A DNA stretch of 64,000 nt from the NCBI GenBank assembly GCA_947429165.1, contig CANEON010000001.1, positions 124,001 to 188,000 of the forward strand. Direction: 5' to 3'. The stretch is from an uncultured Mycoplasmataceae bacterium. Its GTDB lineage: Bacteria; Bacillota_I; Bacilli_A; Mycoplasmatales; Mycoplasmoidaceae. Made by a program: the position numbers and the translations under genes. Of the stretch, positions 1 to 55,441 are shown one piece after another. Every line of letters starts with the position of its first letter. The stretch's first letter is position 1. The notes beneath the pieces were generated by a model, which worked only from the letters and a program-made list of their open reading frames with translations, was not told the DNA's origin and did no database searches.

Positions 1-750
1 ATATTTAGTAAGTAATTCTTCTTTAGTTCCTGAATATACAATTTTTCCACCATCTAAGATAGTAGCAGAATCAAAGTATTGATTTAATTCTGCAAGAACG
101 TGACTTGAGATAAAAATTGCTTTGCCTTGTTTTTTTAAATCAATTAATGTTTCAAAGAATTCAAGTCTTGCTTTTGGATCTAGGTTAGCTACCGGTTCAT
201 CCATGATAATGATTTCTGGATCATGAATTAAAGCTTGTGCTAATAATATTTTTTTCTTTTGACCAGAAGAAAAAGTATTTGGTGAACGATTTCTTAAGTT
301 TCACATATTAAGTTCTTTTAGTTTCTTAGAAACTATTTTTTGAGCTTTCTTGTGTTCAATTCCAGAAAGCATAATCATTCATAACAAATATTCTTTTGAA
401 GACATTTGTTCTGGGAATCTAGCGTTTTCTGGAATGTATCCTATTTTAAGTTTTGCTTCTTCTTTATCATTTCTTATTCCATCAATAAGAATAGTTCCTG
501 ATCATTTAAAATAAGCACCAATTAAAGATTTAATTGTTGTAGTCTTTCCAGCACCGTTTGCACCAATGAATGCATGAAATTGTCCTGGATATACATTGAA
601 TGTTAAATTATTTATTGCTGGTACTTTTTTACCAGAATAAATCTTTGTTAGGTTTTTAACAAATAAAATTGGCTTATTTTTTAATTCGTTATAAGCGTTG
701 ATATCTTCCTTTTTAAATTTCTTTTGGATGTATTTATTTAATGCTTTCAT
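1..750 (-). CDS. ABC transporter ATP-binding protein (3' end outside window)
   Basis: Cytoplasmic ATPase of an ABC-2 type exporter. Read with UGA=Trp from the ATG at 750 (minus strand), it shows a Walker A motif GANGAGKTT near residue 65, a signature FSSGQKKK, and Walker B IIIMDEP followed by the D-loop, then SSH for the switch histidine. An N-terminal extension of about 28 residues precedes the ABC domain. The gene runs off the left edge, so its C-terminus is missing. It starts 5 bases after the end of the permease gene at 756, so the two almost certainly form one transporter. The substrate cannot be told from the sequence. Confidence 0.93.
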
Positions 751-38565: not shown

Positions 38566-40683
38566 ATGAGCAAAATTTGATTTAAAGAATGAGATGGTTT
38601 TAAACCAGGACAATGGTGTGATGAAATTGATACAAGACAATTCATTCAATTAAACTACACACCATATGAAGGTGATGATAGTTTCTTAGAAGGTCCTACA
38701 TCTAATACAACAAAGTTATGAAATAAAGTTAGTGAACTAACAAAGAAAGAACTTGCTAATGGTGGAGTTCTTGACATGGATAAAAGAGTTTCTTTTATCG
38801 ATGCATATGGTCCAGGATATTTAGATAAAAAATTAGAAAAAATTGTTGGTATTCAAACAGATAAACCATTTAAACGTGCTTACATGCCAATTGGTGGTGT
38901 GAGAATGGCTCAACAAGCTGCTAAAACTTATGGATTTGAATCAGATCCTAAAATAGATGAAATCTATACAAAATATCGTAAGACTCACAACCAAGGTGTG
39001 TTCGATGTTTATACAAAAGAAATGCGTGATGCAAGACACACTCACATTATTACTGGTTTGCCTGATGCTTATTCTCGTGGTCGTATTATTGGTGACTACC
39101 GTAGAATCGCTCTATATGGTATTGATTATTTAATTGCTGCTAAAAGAGCAGATGTTAATGCATTAAGTGAAGAAATGCGTCCAGAAATCATCAGACTTCG
39201 TGAAGAAGCTGCTGATCAAGTTAGAGCATTAAATGCTATGAAAAAAATGGCATTAGCTTATGGTCATGATATTTCTAAACCTGCAAAGAACGCTCAAGAA
39301 GCAATTCAATGAACTTACTATGGATACTTAGCTGCAATTAAAGATCAAAATGGTGCTGCTATGTCTATTGGACGTACATCTACTTTCTTAGATATATATA
39401 TTGAAAGAGATTTGAAAAAAGGTTTAATTACTGAAAAAGAAGCTCAAGAATTAATGGATCATTTCGTAATGAAATTACGTATTGTTAAATTCATGAGAAC
39501 TCCTGACTATAACTCATTATTCTCGGGTGATCCAATTTGAGCAACTGAATCAATTGGTGGTATGGGTATTGACGGAAGAACATTGGTAACTAAGAACTCT
39601 TTCAGAATGATTCACACTTTATCAAACATGGGTCCTTCACCAGAACCTAACTTAACAATTCTTTGATCAAAAAACTTACCTCGTTCATTTAAGTTGTTCT
39701 GTGCAAAATATTCAATTAAATATTCTTCAATGCAATATGAATCTGATGATTTAATGAGAGTAACTCATGGTGATGATTATGGTATCGCTTGTTGTGTTTC
39801 TCCGATGAAAATCGGTAAACAAATGCAATTCTTTGGTGCTCGTGCTAACTTAGCAAAAGCTTTATTGTATGCAATAAACGGTGGTTATGATGAAATGCAC
39901 CCAGAATATAGACTTGGTCCTGTATTAGGTCAATTAGATACTAAAAAAGCACTAAATTATGACGAAGTAGTTGAACGTTATAAATTAGTAATGAAATGAT
40001 TAGCTGGCTTATATGTTAATGCATTAAATGTTATTCACTACATGCATGATAAATATTATTATGAAGCAGGTGAAATGGCTTTATATGACTTACACGTTCA
40101 CCGTTTCTTTGCAACTGGTATTGCAGGATTATCTGTAGTTGCTGACTCATTATCTGCAATTAAATATGCAAAAGTAACTCCAGTTTGAAAGAAACTTCCT
40201 AACGGAAGATCAATTGCGGTTGATTTCAAAATTACTGGTCAGTTCCCTAAATATGGAAATGATGATGACAAAGTTGATTTACTTGCAGTTGATGTAATTA
40301 AATTCTTCATGGGAGAATTAAAGAAACTTTATACATATCGTAGTACTGATATCACAACATCAATCTTAACTATTACTTCAAACGTAGTTTATGGTAAAAA
40401 TACTGGTGCTACTCCAGACGGAAGAAAAGCTGGTATTCCTTTTGCTCCTGGTGCAAACCCAATGCATGGACGTGATGATTCTGGTGCAGTTAACTCTTTA
40501 TCTTCTGTTGCTAAGATTCCATTCAAATACGCAGGTGATGGTATTTCAAATACTTTCTCAATCATCCCTGGTGCTTTAGGAAAAGATGATGAATTAGTAA
40601 TTATGAATGGTGAATTAGATATTGATAGATTACCAAAGAAAAAATCAACTAAAAAAACAAAAGCAAAAACTAACAAAAAATAA
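38566..40683 (+). CDS. pflB: Pyruvate formate-lyase, large subunit lacking the glycyl-radical domain
   Basis: Catalytic body of pyruvate formate-lyase (pyruvate + CoA to acetyl-CoA + formate), 705 residues; typical PflB is about 740-760. The catalytic cysteine pair is present in YGIACCVSP (C409, C410). Homology follows PflB to GALGKDDE and then stops. The protein ends in a lysine-rich tail ([15 protein letters not shown]) before TAA. The C-terminal block with the radical glycine is absent here and encoded by the next gene, 35 bases downstream with its own AGGAG site. This is therefore a split enzyme, not a frameshift. UGA is Trp many times. Confidence 0.95.
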
Positions 40684-40718
40684 TAAATTTTAATATATTA
40701 AAGACGTAGGAGAATAAT

Positions 40719-40994
40719 ATGGCTAAAAAAGTAAATAAAAATGATTATTGTAATCAAGACAACCAAGTAAGAGATGAAAATCTTGTAAACTTAATGGACG
40801 GATATTTTGATAAAGGTGCTTATCATCTAAATGTAAATGTTTTAACAAAAGAAACATTATTAGACGCACAAAAACACCCAGAAAAATATCCTCAATTAAC
40901 TATTCGTGTTAGTGGCTATGCAGTTAACTTCATCAAGTTATCTAAAGCACAACAAGACGACGTTATTGCTCGTACATTCCACAAATCAATTTAA
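40719..40994 (+). CDS. Stand-alone glycyl-radical subunit of pyruvate formate-lyase
   Basis: A 91-residue protein that continues PflB exactly where the large subunit ends. After 20 residues of its own ([16 protein letters not shown]) it has [38 protein letters not shown] and a C-terminal [15 protein letters not shown] is the glycyl-radical motif; the radical glycine is G66. It resembles the spare-part protein GrcA/YfiD of enterobacteria, but here the intact copy in the partner is missing, so this subunit should be required for activity. A GTAGGAGAA site precedes the ATG and a terminator follows the stop. Confidence 0.95.
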
Positions 40995-41000
40995 TTAATT

Positions 41001-41026
41001 CCCACTCTTTGAGTGGGTTTTATTTT
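41001..41026 (+). terminator. Intrinsic terminator after the split pfl genes
   Basis: Stem CCCACTC / GAGTGGG with loop TTT, followed by TTTTATTTTT. It closes the pflB plus radical-subunit transcript; pflA starts 26 bases later. Confidence 0.88.
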
Positions 41027-41051
41027 TGTATTGTATAACTTAATATATAGT

Positions 41052-41795
41052 ATGCAAAAGGAAATAAGAGCACCATATTTTAAAATTGAAAGTTTTGGTG
41101 CGGTGGATGGACCAGGAATAAGATTGGTTTTATTCTTACAAGGTTGTCCTTATAGATGTTTATATTGTCACAATCCTGAATCATGAAAAATAAACGGTTC
41201 TAAAACTTTTATTACGCCTACAAAATTAATAGAAAGATATAGACATAATGAATCTTATTACAAGAATAGCGGTGGAATAACTTTGTCAGGTGGAGAACCA
41301 TTAATCCACATGGATTTTTGTTTAGAAGTTTGTAGACTTGGATATGAAAACAATATAAGTATTGCTTTAGACACTTCTGGAGCTACTTTTAATTCAATAA
41401 ATCTAAGTTTCTATAAAAAAATAATTAAATATAAACCTTTATGATTAGTAGATATTAAACATATTAATCCTAAAAAACACAAGGGATTATGTGGTGTTGA
41501 AAATCAAAATGAAATTAACTTAATAAAATTCTTAGAAAAAAACAAACAGCATTATTGAATACGACAAGTTTTACTTCCGGGTTATACCGATGATCCAAAA
41601 GATTTAGAAAAGCTTGGTAAATTTCTTAAAACATTAAAATACAATGATAAATTCGAATTGCAACCATACCACACAATGGGTGTTCAAAAATACAATCAAC
41701 TAAAAATGAAATATAGAATTGTTAATGTTCCTGAACCTTCTAAAGATGAAATATTAGATGCAATTCAAATAATTACTAGCAACATTAAAAAATAA
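41052..41795 (+). CDS. pflA: Pyruvate formate-lyase-activating enzyme (radical SAM)
   Basis: Installs the glycyl radical on pyruvate formate-lyase using S-adenosylmethionine. The 247-residue protein has the radical-SAM cluster motif CPYRCLYC (C32, C36, C39) after [15 protein letters not shown], the GGEP-type motif SGGEPL, and LDTSG. The second half ends with LQPYHTMG, typical of PflA. It sits directly after the split pfl genes, and its substrate here must be the glycine loop of the 91-residue subunit. Confidence 0.96.
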
Positions 41796-42247: not shown

Positions 42248-42300
42248 TTTTTAACTATTTAAGGTACTTTTTTATCCCAAAACTATGGTAACATATTACT
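42248..42300 (+). promoter_or_regulatory. Candidate alternative-sigma promoter upstream of the sigma gene
   Basis: TTTTTAACTATTTAAG (42248-42263) is identical to 16 bases at 55074-55089. Similarity continues as GGTAC, TTTTTA, CCAA and a GTAA-like element nearer the gene. The segment lies 48 bases before the sigma-factor start; the partner lies 40 bases before its gene. No standard TATAAT box is evident in between. This suggests a shared, non-housekeeping promoter class. Confidence 0.55.
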
Positions 42301-42311
42301 ACAAAAAAATT

Positions 42312-42887
42312 ATGAGTAAGTTTAGAATAACTATTAGTCAAATTAAACAATACAAAATTACAAAAAACATATCGTGAAGAAATCGAGTATTTCTATCTAA
42401 TCTTTCTATGATGAGATGTTATGCAATACACATTATTAATCAATATTTCCCATACTATAAATTACCAAAAGTAGAAATGGATTCAATATTGTATATTGCG
42501 TTTACAGACGCAATAGAAAGATTTGATGTTGAACAAAGCACATACAATGTTGATCAAGCGCTTTTCTTAAATATAAAGAGCAAGATAGTAAAAGAGGCAG
42601 TAAGAAATATTAAACGTAATTGTTTAGATAAAAAAATGCTTGAAAGCTTAAAAAATGAACGTTATTTTGTTGAGTTACCAGAATGAATTAAATTAGAAAA
42701 AGTAGATAGTATTTATGACTATATTGAAGCACATTGTGATCCAATATTGAAATCTTTCATAAGGATGAAGTTAAAAGGATATTCTGTTAAAACAATTGCG
42801 TTATTGCATGATACTACTAGCGCAAAAGTGAATAGTAAACTTTATTCTCTGTATGGCATAATCAAAAGATCTGGAATACAAGTATAA
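42312..42887 (+). CDS. SigH-like alternative sigma factor
   Basis: A 191-residue protein with a sigma-70-like layout. AFTDAIERFDVEQ, FLNIKSKIVKEAVRN and a following Lys/Arg patch match regions 2.1-2.4. A C-terminal helix-turn-helix-like segment (LKGYSVKTIALLHDTTSAKV) matches region 4. It precedes rpmG-secE-nusG, exactly the place of sigH in Bacillus and relatives, so synteny supports the call. Mollicutes often have only RpoD plus one divergent small sigma. Its own upstream region carries the motif shared with the 55130 gene, which implies autoregulation. Confidence 0.72.
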
Positions 42888-42965: not shown

Positions 42966-43124
42966 ATGTCTAAAAATATGAAGGTTAAAGCAATATTAGT
43001 CTGTGAAGAATGTAATTCACGTAATTACCATATTCAAAGAAATAAAGTAAGTGAAAAACGTTTAGAACTTCGCAAATATTGCCCTCACTGTAAGAAAACA
43101 ACCTTACACAAGGAAACTAGATAA
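42966..43124 (+). CDS. rpmG: 50S ribosomal protein L33
   Basis: A 52-residue ribosomal protein with the zinc-ribbon cysteines intact: CEEC near residue 17 and CPHC near residue 41, followed by LHKETR. This is the C+ form of L33. A second in-frame ATG at 42978 would give the more usual [12 protein letters not shown] start and is possible. Neither ATG has a well-placed ribosome site. First gene of rpmG-secE-nusG. Confidence 0.93.
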
Positions 43125-43150: not shown

Positions 43151-43393
43151 ATGAAAGACAAATCAAAAGTAGTAACTGAAGACAATAAGTCTAAGGTAAA
43201 GGTAAAAGACCCAAAGAAAAAACTTTCTTATCGTCTTAAGAAATGATTCTTTGGTGTTGGTAAAGAATTTGGAAGAATTACTTGACCTACAAAGTCAAGA
43301 ATTGTTCGTGATTTCTTTACAGCAATCATTATTGTTGCTTTATTGTGTTTAATTTTCTTAGGGTTTGATCAAATTAGTGGATTAATAAAATAG
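43151..43393 (+). CDS. secE: Preprotein translocase subunit SecE
   Basis: An 80-residue single-span SecE. A charged N-terminal 35 residues leads to the conserved amphipathic segment KEFGRITWPTKSRI (Trp written UGA) and one membrane helix DFFTAIIIVALLCLIFLGF. Its position between rpmG and nusG is universal in Firmicutes. It stabilises SecY in the translocon. Confidence 0.95.
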
Positions 43394-43401
43394 AGGTTAA
43401 T

Positions 43402-44079
43402 ATGCAAAACTCATCATCTCAATGATTTATTATTACTGCTATCGGTGGTAAAGAAGATTCAATAGTTGAATCTTTAGTAGAAAAGATTCGTAATTTTGGT
43501 TATGAAGATCATGTAAAAGAAATCAAGATCTTCAAAGAAAATAAAATTAAAGAAGAAGTTTTCTCTAAAGATGATCCATCATTGCCAAAAACAATGAAGA
43601 ATACAAAAACAACTAAGTGAGAAACTTTACCAGATGGTAGGTATAAAAGAATCAAAATTAAAGTTGTAAACAAATTCCCTGGTTACATTTTCATTAACAT
43701 GATTATGGACCAAAACATTTGATATACAATTCGTAACACCAACGGTGTTATGGGATTCGTTGGTAGTAGTGGTAAAGGTGCAATGCCTATTCCAATTACT
43801 ATTGAAGAATTTGAAGCAGTTACTGAAACAAAACAAGAAGAACAAGTTCAACAAACTGAACAAACTTCAGTTGAACAACCAACAGTTGCTCCGAAACAAG
43901 TTTATGAAACAAACTTGAGAATTGGTGATACTGTTCAAATTACGGTTGGTCCTTTTGCTGGAACTTGTGGTGATATTAAAGCCATCGATCTTGATAAAGG
44001 AACCGCTTCAGTTGAAGTTGAATTTTTCGGAAGAGCTACAACAATTGATGCTGCATTCACAGATTTAAAAATTGACTAA
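43402..44079 (+). CDS. nusG: Transcription termination/antitermination factor NusG
   Basis: A 225-residue NusG. The NGN domain begins WFIITAIGGKED and contains FPGYIFINMIMD and NTNGVMGFVG. The C-terminal KOW domain has RIGDTVQITVGPFAGTCGDI. Between the two domains lies a Gln/Glu-rich linker (around residues 140-165), and an insertion near residues 45-80 makes it longer than the roughly 180-residue standard form. It binds RNA polymerase and couples to ribosomes or Rho. Confidence 0.95.
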
Positions 44080-47274: not shown

Positions 47275-49893
47275 ATGGCTGATGTCAAAAAAATAGTAGA
47301 CAGCGTACGTGAAGCTCAAAAGAAATTCGCTAACTTTACACAAGAACAAGTTGACGAAATTTTCTACCGTGCTTCATGAGCTGCTAACAATGCACGTGTT
47401 CCTTTAGCTAAACTTGCAGTTGAAGATACAGGAATGGGTGTAGTTGAAGATAAAATTATTAAGAATCATTTTGCTTCTGAATATATCTACAACAAATATA
47501 AAGCATTTAAAACTGTTGGTACTTATGAACAAGACCAAGCAGATGGTTACGAATATTTATACGAACCAATGGGAGTGGTTGCTGCAATTATTCCAACAAC
47601 TAACCCTACATCTACAGCAATCTTTAAATGTTTAATTTCATTAAAGACTCGTAATGGTGTAGTTATTTCTGCTCACCCAAGAGCTTTTAAATCAACAATT
47701 GAAGCTGCTAAGATTATTCTTGAAGCTGCTGAAAAAGCTGGAGCTCCAAAGGGAATCATTAGTTGATTACCTCAAGGTGCTTCAATGGAAGATACTGCTA
47801 CTTTAATGAAAGAAGCAGATATTATTCTAGCAACTGGTGGTGGTGGTTTAGTTCGCGCTGCTTATTCATCTGGTACACCTGCTATCGGTGTAGGTGCTGG
47901 TAACTGTCCTGCAATTATTGATGAATCTGCTGATTTAGAAATGGCTGTTGCATCAATTATTCAGTCTAACACATTTGATAACGGTGTAGTTTGTGCAACT
48001 GAAAACTCAATCGTTTGTGTTGCTTCTGTTTATGACAAGTTTGTAAAAGAACTTAAAAAACAATATGCACATGTTGTAAGTGATCAAAAAACTTGTAAAA
48101 AAATTGGACAAAAAATGTTCAAAGAAGGAAAATACGGTTTGTTAAACCCTGATATGGTTGGTCAAAACCCACAAGGTTTAGCAAAAGTATTTGACATCAA
48201 CGTTCCAGCTGATGCTAAATTATTAGTTGTTGAAGCTAAATCAACTGCTTATGAAGAACCATTAGCTCATGAAAAACTTTCATGTTTTGTTTCTTTATTC
48301 AAAGCAAAAGACTTCAATGATGCTTTAAGAATTCAAACTGAATTATTAAAACTTGGTCCTGGTCACACAGCTTCATTATTTGTTAATGAATGAAAACACC
48401 CTGAAAAAATTGATCTATTTAAAAACTCAGCTAAGACTGCAAGATTAGTTGTTAACTGTCCATCAGCATTTGGTGGTATTGGTGATTTATATAACTTCCA
48501 CTTAGATCCATCTTTAACATTAGGATGTGGTACATGAGGTGGTAACATGTTCAGTGAAAACATTGGACCTAAACATTTATTAAACAAAAAAACTGTTGCT
48601 AAAAGGAGAGAAAACATGCTTTGATTACGTTTACCAAGCAAAATTTACTTTAAATACGGATGCTTAGAAGAAGCATTAAGAGACTTACAAGAAGACGGAG
48701 TTAAAAAAGTATTTATCGTTACTGATGGATTCATTTGACAAACATTTGGAACTAAACTTACAAATGTATTAGAAAAATACGGAATTAAGTCTCAAGCTTT
48801 CACAAGTGTTGAACCAAACCCATCATTATCTACAACATTAAAAGGTGCTGCTGAAATTAAATCATACAACCCAGAAGCTGTTATTGCTATCGGTGGTGGT
48901 TCATCATTAGATGCTGCTAAATTAATGTGATTGTACAACGAATACCCAGAAGCTAAATTCCAAGACTTAGCATTAAGATTTATGGATATCCGTAAACGTA
49001 TCTGTAAATTCCCTAAAGTTGGTAAGAAATGTCAATTAGTATGTATTCCAACTACAGCTGGTACAGGTTCTGAAGTTACTCCATTTGCTATTATTACAGA
49101 TGACAAGACTCACGTTAAATATTCTTTAGCTGACTATGCATTTACTCCAAACATGGCTGTTATCGATGCTCAATTCATGATGGGATTACCTCCAAGAATG
49201 ACAGCTGTTACAGCTGCAGATGCATTCAGCCACTGTTTTGAATCATACGTTTCAATCTTAGCTACTGAATTTACTCGTCCATATTCTTTAGAAGGTATTA
49301 AGTTAATTCACAAATACTTAGAAAGAGCATACAAGAATGGTGCTAACGACAAAGAAGCAAGAGAAGCAATTGCTCATGCTGCTACAATTGCTGGTATTGC
49401 ATTCGGTAATGCATTCTTAGGTGTAGTTCACTCATTATCTCACAAGATCGGTGGACACTTCGGTGTAATGCACGGTGCTGCAAACGCAATCTATTTACCA
49501 CATGTTATTGCGTACAACTCAGAAGTTGGTGTAAGAGAAAAACAAGCATACTGATCTCAATATGACCGTCCATTAGTAAGACAAAGATATTGTGAAATTG
49601 CTGATGTTTTAGGAATTAAAGGTAAAACTGAAGCTGACAAGATTAACAATTTAATTAAAGAAGTTCAAAGATTATTTAAAGCTGTTAACTTATGACAATC
49701 AACACAAGAATACGGTGTTAATGATAAAGAATTTGAAAAGATTCTTGATCAAATGTCAACTGAAGCTTTTGATGACCAATGTACAAATGCAAACCCAAGA
49801 TTCCCTGCAATCAAGGATATGAGAGAATTATTCATCGCTGCTCACTACAACAAACCAGTTAGAAAAGTAACAAACAAAAAAGAAGTAAAATAA
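47275..49893 (+). CDS. adhE: Bifunctional aldehyde-alcohol dehydrogenase
   Basis: Reduces acetyl-CoA to acetaldehyde and then ethanol, regenerating NAD. The 872-residue protein has an N-terminal aldehyde dehydrogenase domain with PTTNPTSTAIFK and the active cysteine in NGVVCATE (C240), a linker, and a C-terminal iron-dependent alcohol dehydrogenase domain with GGGSSLDAAKLM, TTAGTGSEVTPF, DAFSHCFE and HSLSHKIGGHFGV. AdhE forms spirosome filaments in other bacteria. TTAGGAG precedes the ATG, and TATAAT lies near 47240. It pairs functionally with pyruvate formate-lyase and PFOR, which supply acetyl-CoA. Confidence 0.97.
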
Positions 49894-55073: not shown

Positions 55074-55123
55074 TTTTTAACTATTTAAGTACCTTTATTT
55101 ACCAACTTTTGTATTAAGATTAT
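55074..55123 (+). promoter_or_regulatory. Candidate alternative-sigma promoter (second copy of motif)
   Basis: TTTTTAACTATTTAAG at 55074-55089 is identical to the segment upstream of the sigma gene at 42312, and is followed by TACC, TTTATTTA and CCAAC in similar order. It ends 40 bases before the start codon of the gene at 55130. Confidence 0.55.
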
Positions 55124-55129
55124 TTCGCT

Positions 55130-55441
55130 ATGAATAATAAGTGTAACGAAAAGTATAGGTTAGGTAAACCAAGAAGATCTCTTATAGAGATCATCAAGTG
55201 TGTAAATAATAAGAAATACATTGTTGATATAATGAGTATTAAGGGAATTGGTGGAATCATGAAAAAGCCAGAGTGATTTATTGATTATGAGAAAAAACAA
55301 GATCAATTTAACAATCGTGTTTTAGATTTTATCAACAAACAGCAGGAATTTAATAAACAAGTGTTAAATCGTTTGGACAAGCATGACCAATTGTTTAAAG
55401 TAGTTATTAATCAATTTAAAAAACACAAATGAATTAAATAG
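55130..55441 (+). CDS. Small coiled-coil protein, putative sigma regulon member
   Basis: A 103-residue basic protein that I do not recognise. Residues 1-45 are rich in Lys/Arg and hydrophobic residues (GKPRRSLIEIIKCV). From about residue 52 there is a heptad-like helix (QQEFNKQVLNRLDKHDQ), suggesting a coiled coil. A second ATG at 55259 (MKKPEWF) with a better ribosome site could give a 60-residue product. An inverted repeat GATCTC / GAGATC occurs in the coding region near 55177-55193. It shares a promoter-like motif with the sigma gene and is followed by its own terminator. Confidence 0.7.

Follow-up and report, generated by a model that had tools for sequence, protein, structure and literature searches.

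What is the small gene that stands directly before rpmG-secE-nusG in the window (the whole 64,000-nucleotide stretch of DNA analysed here), and which genes may it control? The first-pass annotation had taken it for a retained, highly diverged SigH of 191 residues with region 2-like and region 4-like segments, possibly controlling DNA uptake, recombination or surface genes, in a group of bacteria credited with very few sigma factors. In what follows, reading frames of the window genome were translated with TGA as tryptophan (table 4), G000 is the window's own genome, other G-numbers are related genomes, and C- and L-numbers are contigs and loci, respectively.

The span given to the gene by that annotation, 42248-42887, includes the promoter region besides the sigma gene itself (Table 1). 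The frame 42285-42887 on the forward strand would encode 200 amino acids without a stop when TGA is read as tryptophan; on comparison with relatives, however, ATG 42312 is better supported as the start than ATG 42285, because the two closest relatives begin at the matching position and ATG 42285 lies inside the putative -10 element. The gene is preceded by rpsO and followed by rpmG, secE and nusG in that order. Before rpsO, at 38566-41795, are ORFs read as pyruvate formate-lyase, a glycyl-radical spare part and an activating enzyme, and an ORF at 47275-49893 is read as an AdhE-like fusion; named by reading only, the pyruvate formate-lyase-type and AdhE-like ORFs make the organism read as a fermentative anaerobe.

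Table 1. Features of the window around the sigma factor gene and a putative target
Feature	Position	Strand	Basis or remark
Putative autoregulatory promoter, ACTATTTAAGGTAC - 16 nt - TATGGTAACATATTA	42254..42298	+	PWM, relative G032
Alternative upstream start, ATG 42285, would give 200 aa	42285..42311	+	probably unused
Sigma factor gene, SigH-type, 191 aa, table 4	42312..42887	+	ORF, profile, model, hhalign
Sigma-2 domain	residues ~5-105		191-aa numbering
Sigma-4 domain	residues ~122-190		191-aa numbering
rpmG (ribosomal protein L33)	42966..43124	+	conserved neighbour
secE	43151..43393	+	conserved neighbour
nusG	43402..44079	+	conserved neighbour, anchor for synteny
Putative regulon member: element AACTATTTAAGTACC-N16-TGTATTAAGATTATT (55079-55124) before 103-aa coiled-coil-like ORF (55130-55441)	55079..55441	+	

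Taken alone, the window protein gave nothing useful in single-sequence Pfam and PDB searches, with no significant Pfam sigma family, and in NCBIfam only a weak match to the SigF model (E 0.001); an initial search with it found homologues in 20 of 149 related genomes. A profile built on 25 sequences (alignment A2), obtained from the DNA surrounding nusG in 60 genomes and by profile iteration, found a homologue in 83 of the 95 genomes of the bacterial family at E<=1, most of them far below 1e-6, and its extension to 42 sequences (A3) found one in 138 of the 198 genomes of the order. TIGR02937, the general model of the sigma-70 family, was matched by 22 of the 25 A2 members (best 4e-13). Against the PDB the top match of the A2 profile was SigH of Fusobacterium (3mzy, E 5.5e-11), with FliA, SigW and others lower, and hhalign aligned the family with Bacilli sigma factors over 186 columns (probability 99.3%, E 8e-21); the Bacilli SigH set used was taken mostly at the rpmG-secE-nusG locus, and most of those loci adjoin these three genes. 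The equivalog cut-off of the spore_sigH model TIGR02859 was not reached, three of the 25 members matching it weakly (best 0.0017), and a scan of G000 with this model found the main sigma factor alone. The same cut-off was also unreached in all 60 sampled genomes of the class, and the model therefore does not separate non-sporulating SigH; our claim is limited to a SigH-type factor and does not extend to spore SigH.

The AlphaFold model of the protein (mean pLDDT 88.7, pTM 0.58) consists of a sigma-2 domain, which is helical, and a sigma-4 domain, with a poorly predicted linker between them, and all 50 listed structural matches of the model are sigma factors. Single domains superpose with an rmsd of 1.8 A over 69 residues on domain 4 of SigH and of 2.7 A over 90 residues on domain 2 of sigma-E; the long-range rmsd is large because the arrangement of the domains differs.

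In 48 of 110 Mollicutes genomes a homologue was placed ahead of nusG, in the same orientation and no more than 4 kb away (13 of 33 in the genus, 13 of 40 in other genera of the same family and 22 of 37 in other families of the order). Only genomes in which both genes could be placed were counted, one further genome of the genus having no nusG match, and in many of those without the gene before nusG the assembly is broken or the gene has moved. The order in G042 and G051 is cysS, rlmB (SpoU), sigma gene, amino-acid permease, rpmG, secE, nusG, which is the Bacillus order cysS-rlmB-sig-rpmG-secE-nusG with one insertion; the window itself lacks cysS-rlmB upstream and has rpmG-secE-nusG directly downstream. 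In other genera a gene of 500 amino acids separates the sigma gene from rpmG; cysS was considered for it and rejected, since it is the amino-acid permease, which in some members of the genus is found just upstream of the sigma gene (L060, L077, L052). SecE ORFs of the genus range from about 70 to more than 300 amino acids, with long N-terminal extensions in many genomes (L005-L011, L024-L082), and NusG is longer in the genus than in other families of Mollicutes.

The profile-profile match to locus-matched SigH, the best PDB match to SigH, the predicted fold and the gene order support, as far as sequences and a model can, the identification of the gene as a retained, highly diverged SigH, and the window protein adds a new member to that group. 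The presence of homologues across the family, the shared locus in 13 genus members and the purifying selection described below confirm that it is more than a chance ORF. Thus, the first-pass annotation was borne out on the 191-residue protein before rpmG-secE-nusG, whose two segments correspond to domain matches in the family and to folds in the model, and on its SigH ancestry, as well as by three of the checks that it had named (profile searches against sigma-70 regions 2 and 4, structure prediction, and synteny in relatives).

A common TATAAT box was not found in the recA upstream regions of the genus. In G006, G024 and G027 recA is preceded by AGYCAAA-N12-GTAAATWA, a pattern which overall is no commoner than its reversed control, only exact or intergenic matches being informative; one other gene, for a membrane protein of 123-128 amino acids, has it in the intergenic DNA upstream in G024 and G027, and the remaining one-mismatch matches fall within ORFs or before a 34-codon frame. 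The upstream regions of recA and of this small membrane-protein gene, compared over 16 genomes, match within genomes with a mean of 23.4 as against 14.6 between genomes, none of 100,000 permutations being as good (p 1e-5). The same holds for recA with comEC (p 1e-4) and for the small gene with comEC (p 5e-5; 14 genomes), whereas the control regions upstream of rpmG, secE and nusG gave no within-genome matching (p 0.03-0.9); in these permutations related genomes count as exchangeable. The recA and small-gene regions share 30 identical bases in G023, TTTTTGCACATACTATTAT in G002 and CAATAAAGATA with AAGTAAATTT in G001, and no clear sharing between these two regions was seen in G003, G031 or G025/G026/G035.

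In G002 a 17-letter core, TTTTNNCACATACTATTAT, occurs in 19 exact copies and one one-mismatch variant (20), against no exact match and two weaker matches in all in the reversed control, and each exact site is followed by an ORF at a distance of 0-18 nt. The genes behind these sites are recA, ruvA, comEC, an ssb-like OB-fold protein and a C39-peptidase ABC exporter (C39, ComEC, OB-fold and RuvA being identified by domain matches), together with a peptide bearing the GG leader LTKEEKQNINGG, the small membrane protein, a lipoprotein-like ORF and paralogous small-protein families. At L343, L346, L349, L350 and L354 of G002 paralogous proteins of ~160 amino acids (MTFLLQLQTN...) are each preceded by a competence-type element. 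Paralogous small-protein families, which may have been copied together with their promoters, account for about half of the sites in G002 and most of those in G000.

The window's own genome (688 kb) carries the element TTTAAGTACC-N16-(G/A)GT..TA..ATT before the ssb-like gene, the small membrane-protein gene and the C39 exporter, and a TTTAAGTACC-type element also precedes about six paralogous small genes, among them the window ORF at 55130-55441, with nine strong sites in all. The recA, comEC and ruvA upstream regions of G000 are without the TTTAAGTACC element; comEC and a GG-leader gene share a different, short and weaker element, GAAATAGTAATTA. The exporter (G000:C2:30320-32182) and an 82-aa peptide with the GG leader KKKSINGG (G000:C5:9945-10193), both outside the window, suggest that a mollicute exports a bacteriocin or a signal peptide.

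The 103-aa ORF of Table 1 is one of about eight paralogues in G000, and a member of this family stands directly before the sigma gene in G029 and G032, where the latter is second in an apparent operon. The operon of G032 has upstream CTTTTCTTGTGCC-N16-TGTAGTAAGATTA, almost the variant found at two other G000 sites, and the small membrane-protein gene of G029 has TTTTAGATACC where G000 has TTTAAGTACC. A PWM trained on seven other G000 sites, with the sigma gene's own site left out, ranks the site upstream of the sigma gene 19th genome-wide, with the exact 16-nt spacing. This is a weak match (13.3 bits), and since some five positions in the reversed genome reach or exceed this score, the chance of such a match within 100 nt of the start is about 4 in 10,000. 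No autoregulatory element was seen at the sigma gene in G002 or G023.

We infer that the window sigma factor recognises these elements, because sequence searches of G000 found no other full alternative sigma factor, because the sigma gene has such an element in its own branch, and because the targets agree with those of two characterised factors: MG428, published as sigma-20 of Mycoplasma genitalium, controls recA, ruvA and ruvB (PMC9262362), and comEC is among the com genes activated by SigH of Lactobacillus sakei (PMC3364868). These searches of G000 returned the main sigma factor, a short YlxM-like region-4 ORF and, by way of its own profile, the window gene; the short ORF (G000:C5:909-1073, with equivalents of ~103 amino acids in relatives) has sigma region 4 only and is probably YlxM-like. 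A SigH-type factor could nevertheless exist while the co-varying elements are read by something else, for example the main sigma factor with an activator or a repressor, given that no direct protein-DNA link is available, that a TATAAT-like sequence is found at recA in G000, G029 and G025, and that the sigma gene of G002 has no element. We consider such a reader unlikely, although it cannot be set aside, as paired blocks with a constant spacer, immediately ahead of very short leaders, are consistent with a sigma factor, and the lack of a further full alternative sigma factor in sequence searches, the element at the sigma gene in the window's branch and the gene content shared with known sigma-20 and SigH targets all point away from it. 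The explanation that we prefer, and hold to be probable, is a SigH-descended sigma factor directing the polymerase to uptake and recombination genes with promoters that diverge along with it, in which recognition of the elements is inferred without binding or expression data.

The rate at which the gene changes was then compared with that of the genome. The window protein is 41-42% identical to its G029 counterpart, the median of 115 reciprocal best pairs being 91%, and its dN of 0.54 is the sixth highest of the 115 gene pairs (median 0.05), with a dS of 1.2 and a dN/dS of 0.45; between G029 and G032, the two closest relatives, identity is 84% and dN/dS 0.22. Since dS (1.2 to 1.7) is close to 0.94, the median of the genome, fast amino-acid change accounts for the low identity, and allelic replacement of the sigma gene was rejected; positive selection was rejected as well, dN/dS staying below 1. 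Judged by the two dN/dS ratios together with the high dN, the gene is under constraint yet fast-changing. The core of region 2 is kept, with the motif DSILYIAF..RFD..Q..YN.DQAL, and the recognition helix of region 4 differs. A sigH relic without present function, diverging through lost constraint, would be in line with the dN and dN/dS against G029 and with the poor conservation of that helix; the open frame, the values for G029 and G032, the homologue in most genomes of the family and the conserved region-2 motif speak against decay, which we regard as very improbable. sigH is also fast-changing between species in staphylococci and lactobacilli, for a reason that is unknown (PMC3364868).

That the protein is another DNA-binding regulator, of the LuxR/GerE or some other helix-turn-helix type, is hardly credible, for the weak GerE matches in 16 of the 25 members (best 5e-6), the LuxR-type chains lower in the PDB list and the lone weak SigF match of single-sequence searches are outweighed by an N-terminal half that folds as sigma domain 2 and matches region 2 of SigF, FliA and SigH, by the SigH locus, and by the confinement of GerE-type PDB matches to the C-terminal helix-turn-helix, which is similar to sigma region 4. 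The SigH assignment would have been refuted by a confident model without a sigma fold or by a better match to another DNA-binding family, and neither was encountered.

Thus, we propose that a gene descended from Firmicutes sigH has been kept at its ancestral place before rpmG-secE-nusG, and that its product, a small sigma factor with domains 2 and 4 only, would join core RNA polymerase and direct it to two-block promoters made of roughly a -35 block, 12-16 nt and a -10 block without TATAAT, followed by a very short leader. Targets in the genus would be recA, comEC, ruvA, the ssb-like gene, the small membrane protein and the C39-type peptide exporter, and in the branch of the window genome the sigma gene itself. 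Sigma factor and promoters would diverge together, so that each species of the genus would have its own promoter code. Binding to core polymerase, the nature of the elements as promoters with transcription starts, and natural transformation or recombination as the output are inferred, while homology, predicted fold, gene order, fast evolution and the sharing of genome-specific elements are observed. The control of DNA uptake and recombination anticipated by the first-pass annotation is thereby supported only indirectly, by the genome-specific elements at recA, comEC, ruvA and ssb-like genes, and that of surface genes in part, by the C39 exporter, the GG-leader peptide, the lipoprotein-like gene and the small membrane protein. 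For the broader idea that the sigma factor and the whole competence/recombination regulon shift promoter specificity together, species by species, within one genus, we see the balance tipping only slightly in favour. As far as the literature searched shows, a co-diverging, species-specific promoter set has not been described for SigH.

Despite the view that Mollicutes are nearly devoid of alternative sigma factors, they commonly keep SigH at its original place. The first-pass annotation had overlooked that the gene is widespread among them and no rarity, and that this bacterial family offers a functional precedent, MG428/sigma-20, which becomes tied to the SigH lineage. The predicted regulon (recA, comEC, ruvA, ssb-like gene, C39 exporter and GG-leader peptide) makes natural transformation searchable in uncultured wall-less bacteria. 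Why sigH diverges so strongly is a published open question (PMC3364868), to which matched divergence of sigma factor and promoters makes one answer testable. If true, a private promoter code per species would explain the fast evolution of SigH, and might stop regulon genes acquired as new copies from functioning across species boundaries.

Among known systems, the ECF (group 4) sigma factors such as SigW and RpoE also consist of domains 2 and 4 only and account for part of the fold and profile matches, but no gene for an anti-sigma partner was recognised beside the window gene, and the locus and best matches favour SigH. ComX (sigma-X) of streptococci is likewise a small alternative sigma factor for competence, and a C39 exporter and GG-leader peptide, both preceded by the element in G002, accompany competence signalling in streptococci. 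It is encoded at another locus, however, and has one conserved promoter box across streptococci, whereas the elements described here are species-specific, and there is no evidence here for the peptide being a pheromone.

The SigH factors of non-sporulating Firmicutes (such as L. sakei, Staphylococcus aureus and Listeria) differ from the window protein in their very low sequence identity to it, and the elements described here vary between species and differ from the Bacillus SigH consensus. The cysS...nusG locus, the size and domains 2 and 4 are shared with these factors, as are the fast divergence between species and the targeting of comEC along with other competence genes (PMC3364868, PMC3486894).

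The comparison with MG428 is based on a 171-aa ORF of a 580,076-bp genome, which matches a family profile built without it at E 6e-8, and at 1e-26 after inclusion. This ORF lies between OsmC-like and PtsI-like ORFs and after a DEAD-box helicase, all named by reading, a context that we take to be MG425-MG429 of M. genitalium G37, so that the 171-aa ORF would be MG428. On this profile match MG428/sigma-20 apparently belongs to the same family as the window sigma gene. The two differ in that MG428 lies away from nusG while the window gene has stayed at the ancestral position of sigH, in a pairwise identity of only about 20%, and in that the predicted regulon here includes comEC, the ssb-like gene and the C39 exporter. 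They are alike in profile homology, as small two-domain sigma factors of the same bacterial family, and in that, of the sigma-20 targets recA, ruvA and ruvB, the first two overlap the genes preceded by elements here: in G002 recA and ruvA carry one shared element, and in many relatives recA carries a shared element, though in G000 this is not clear.
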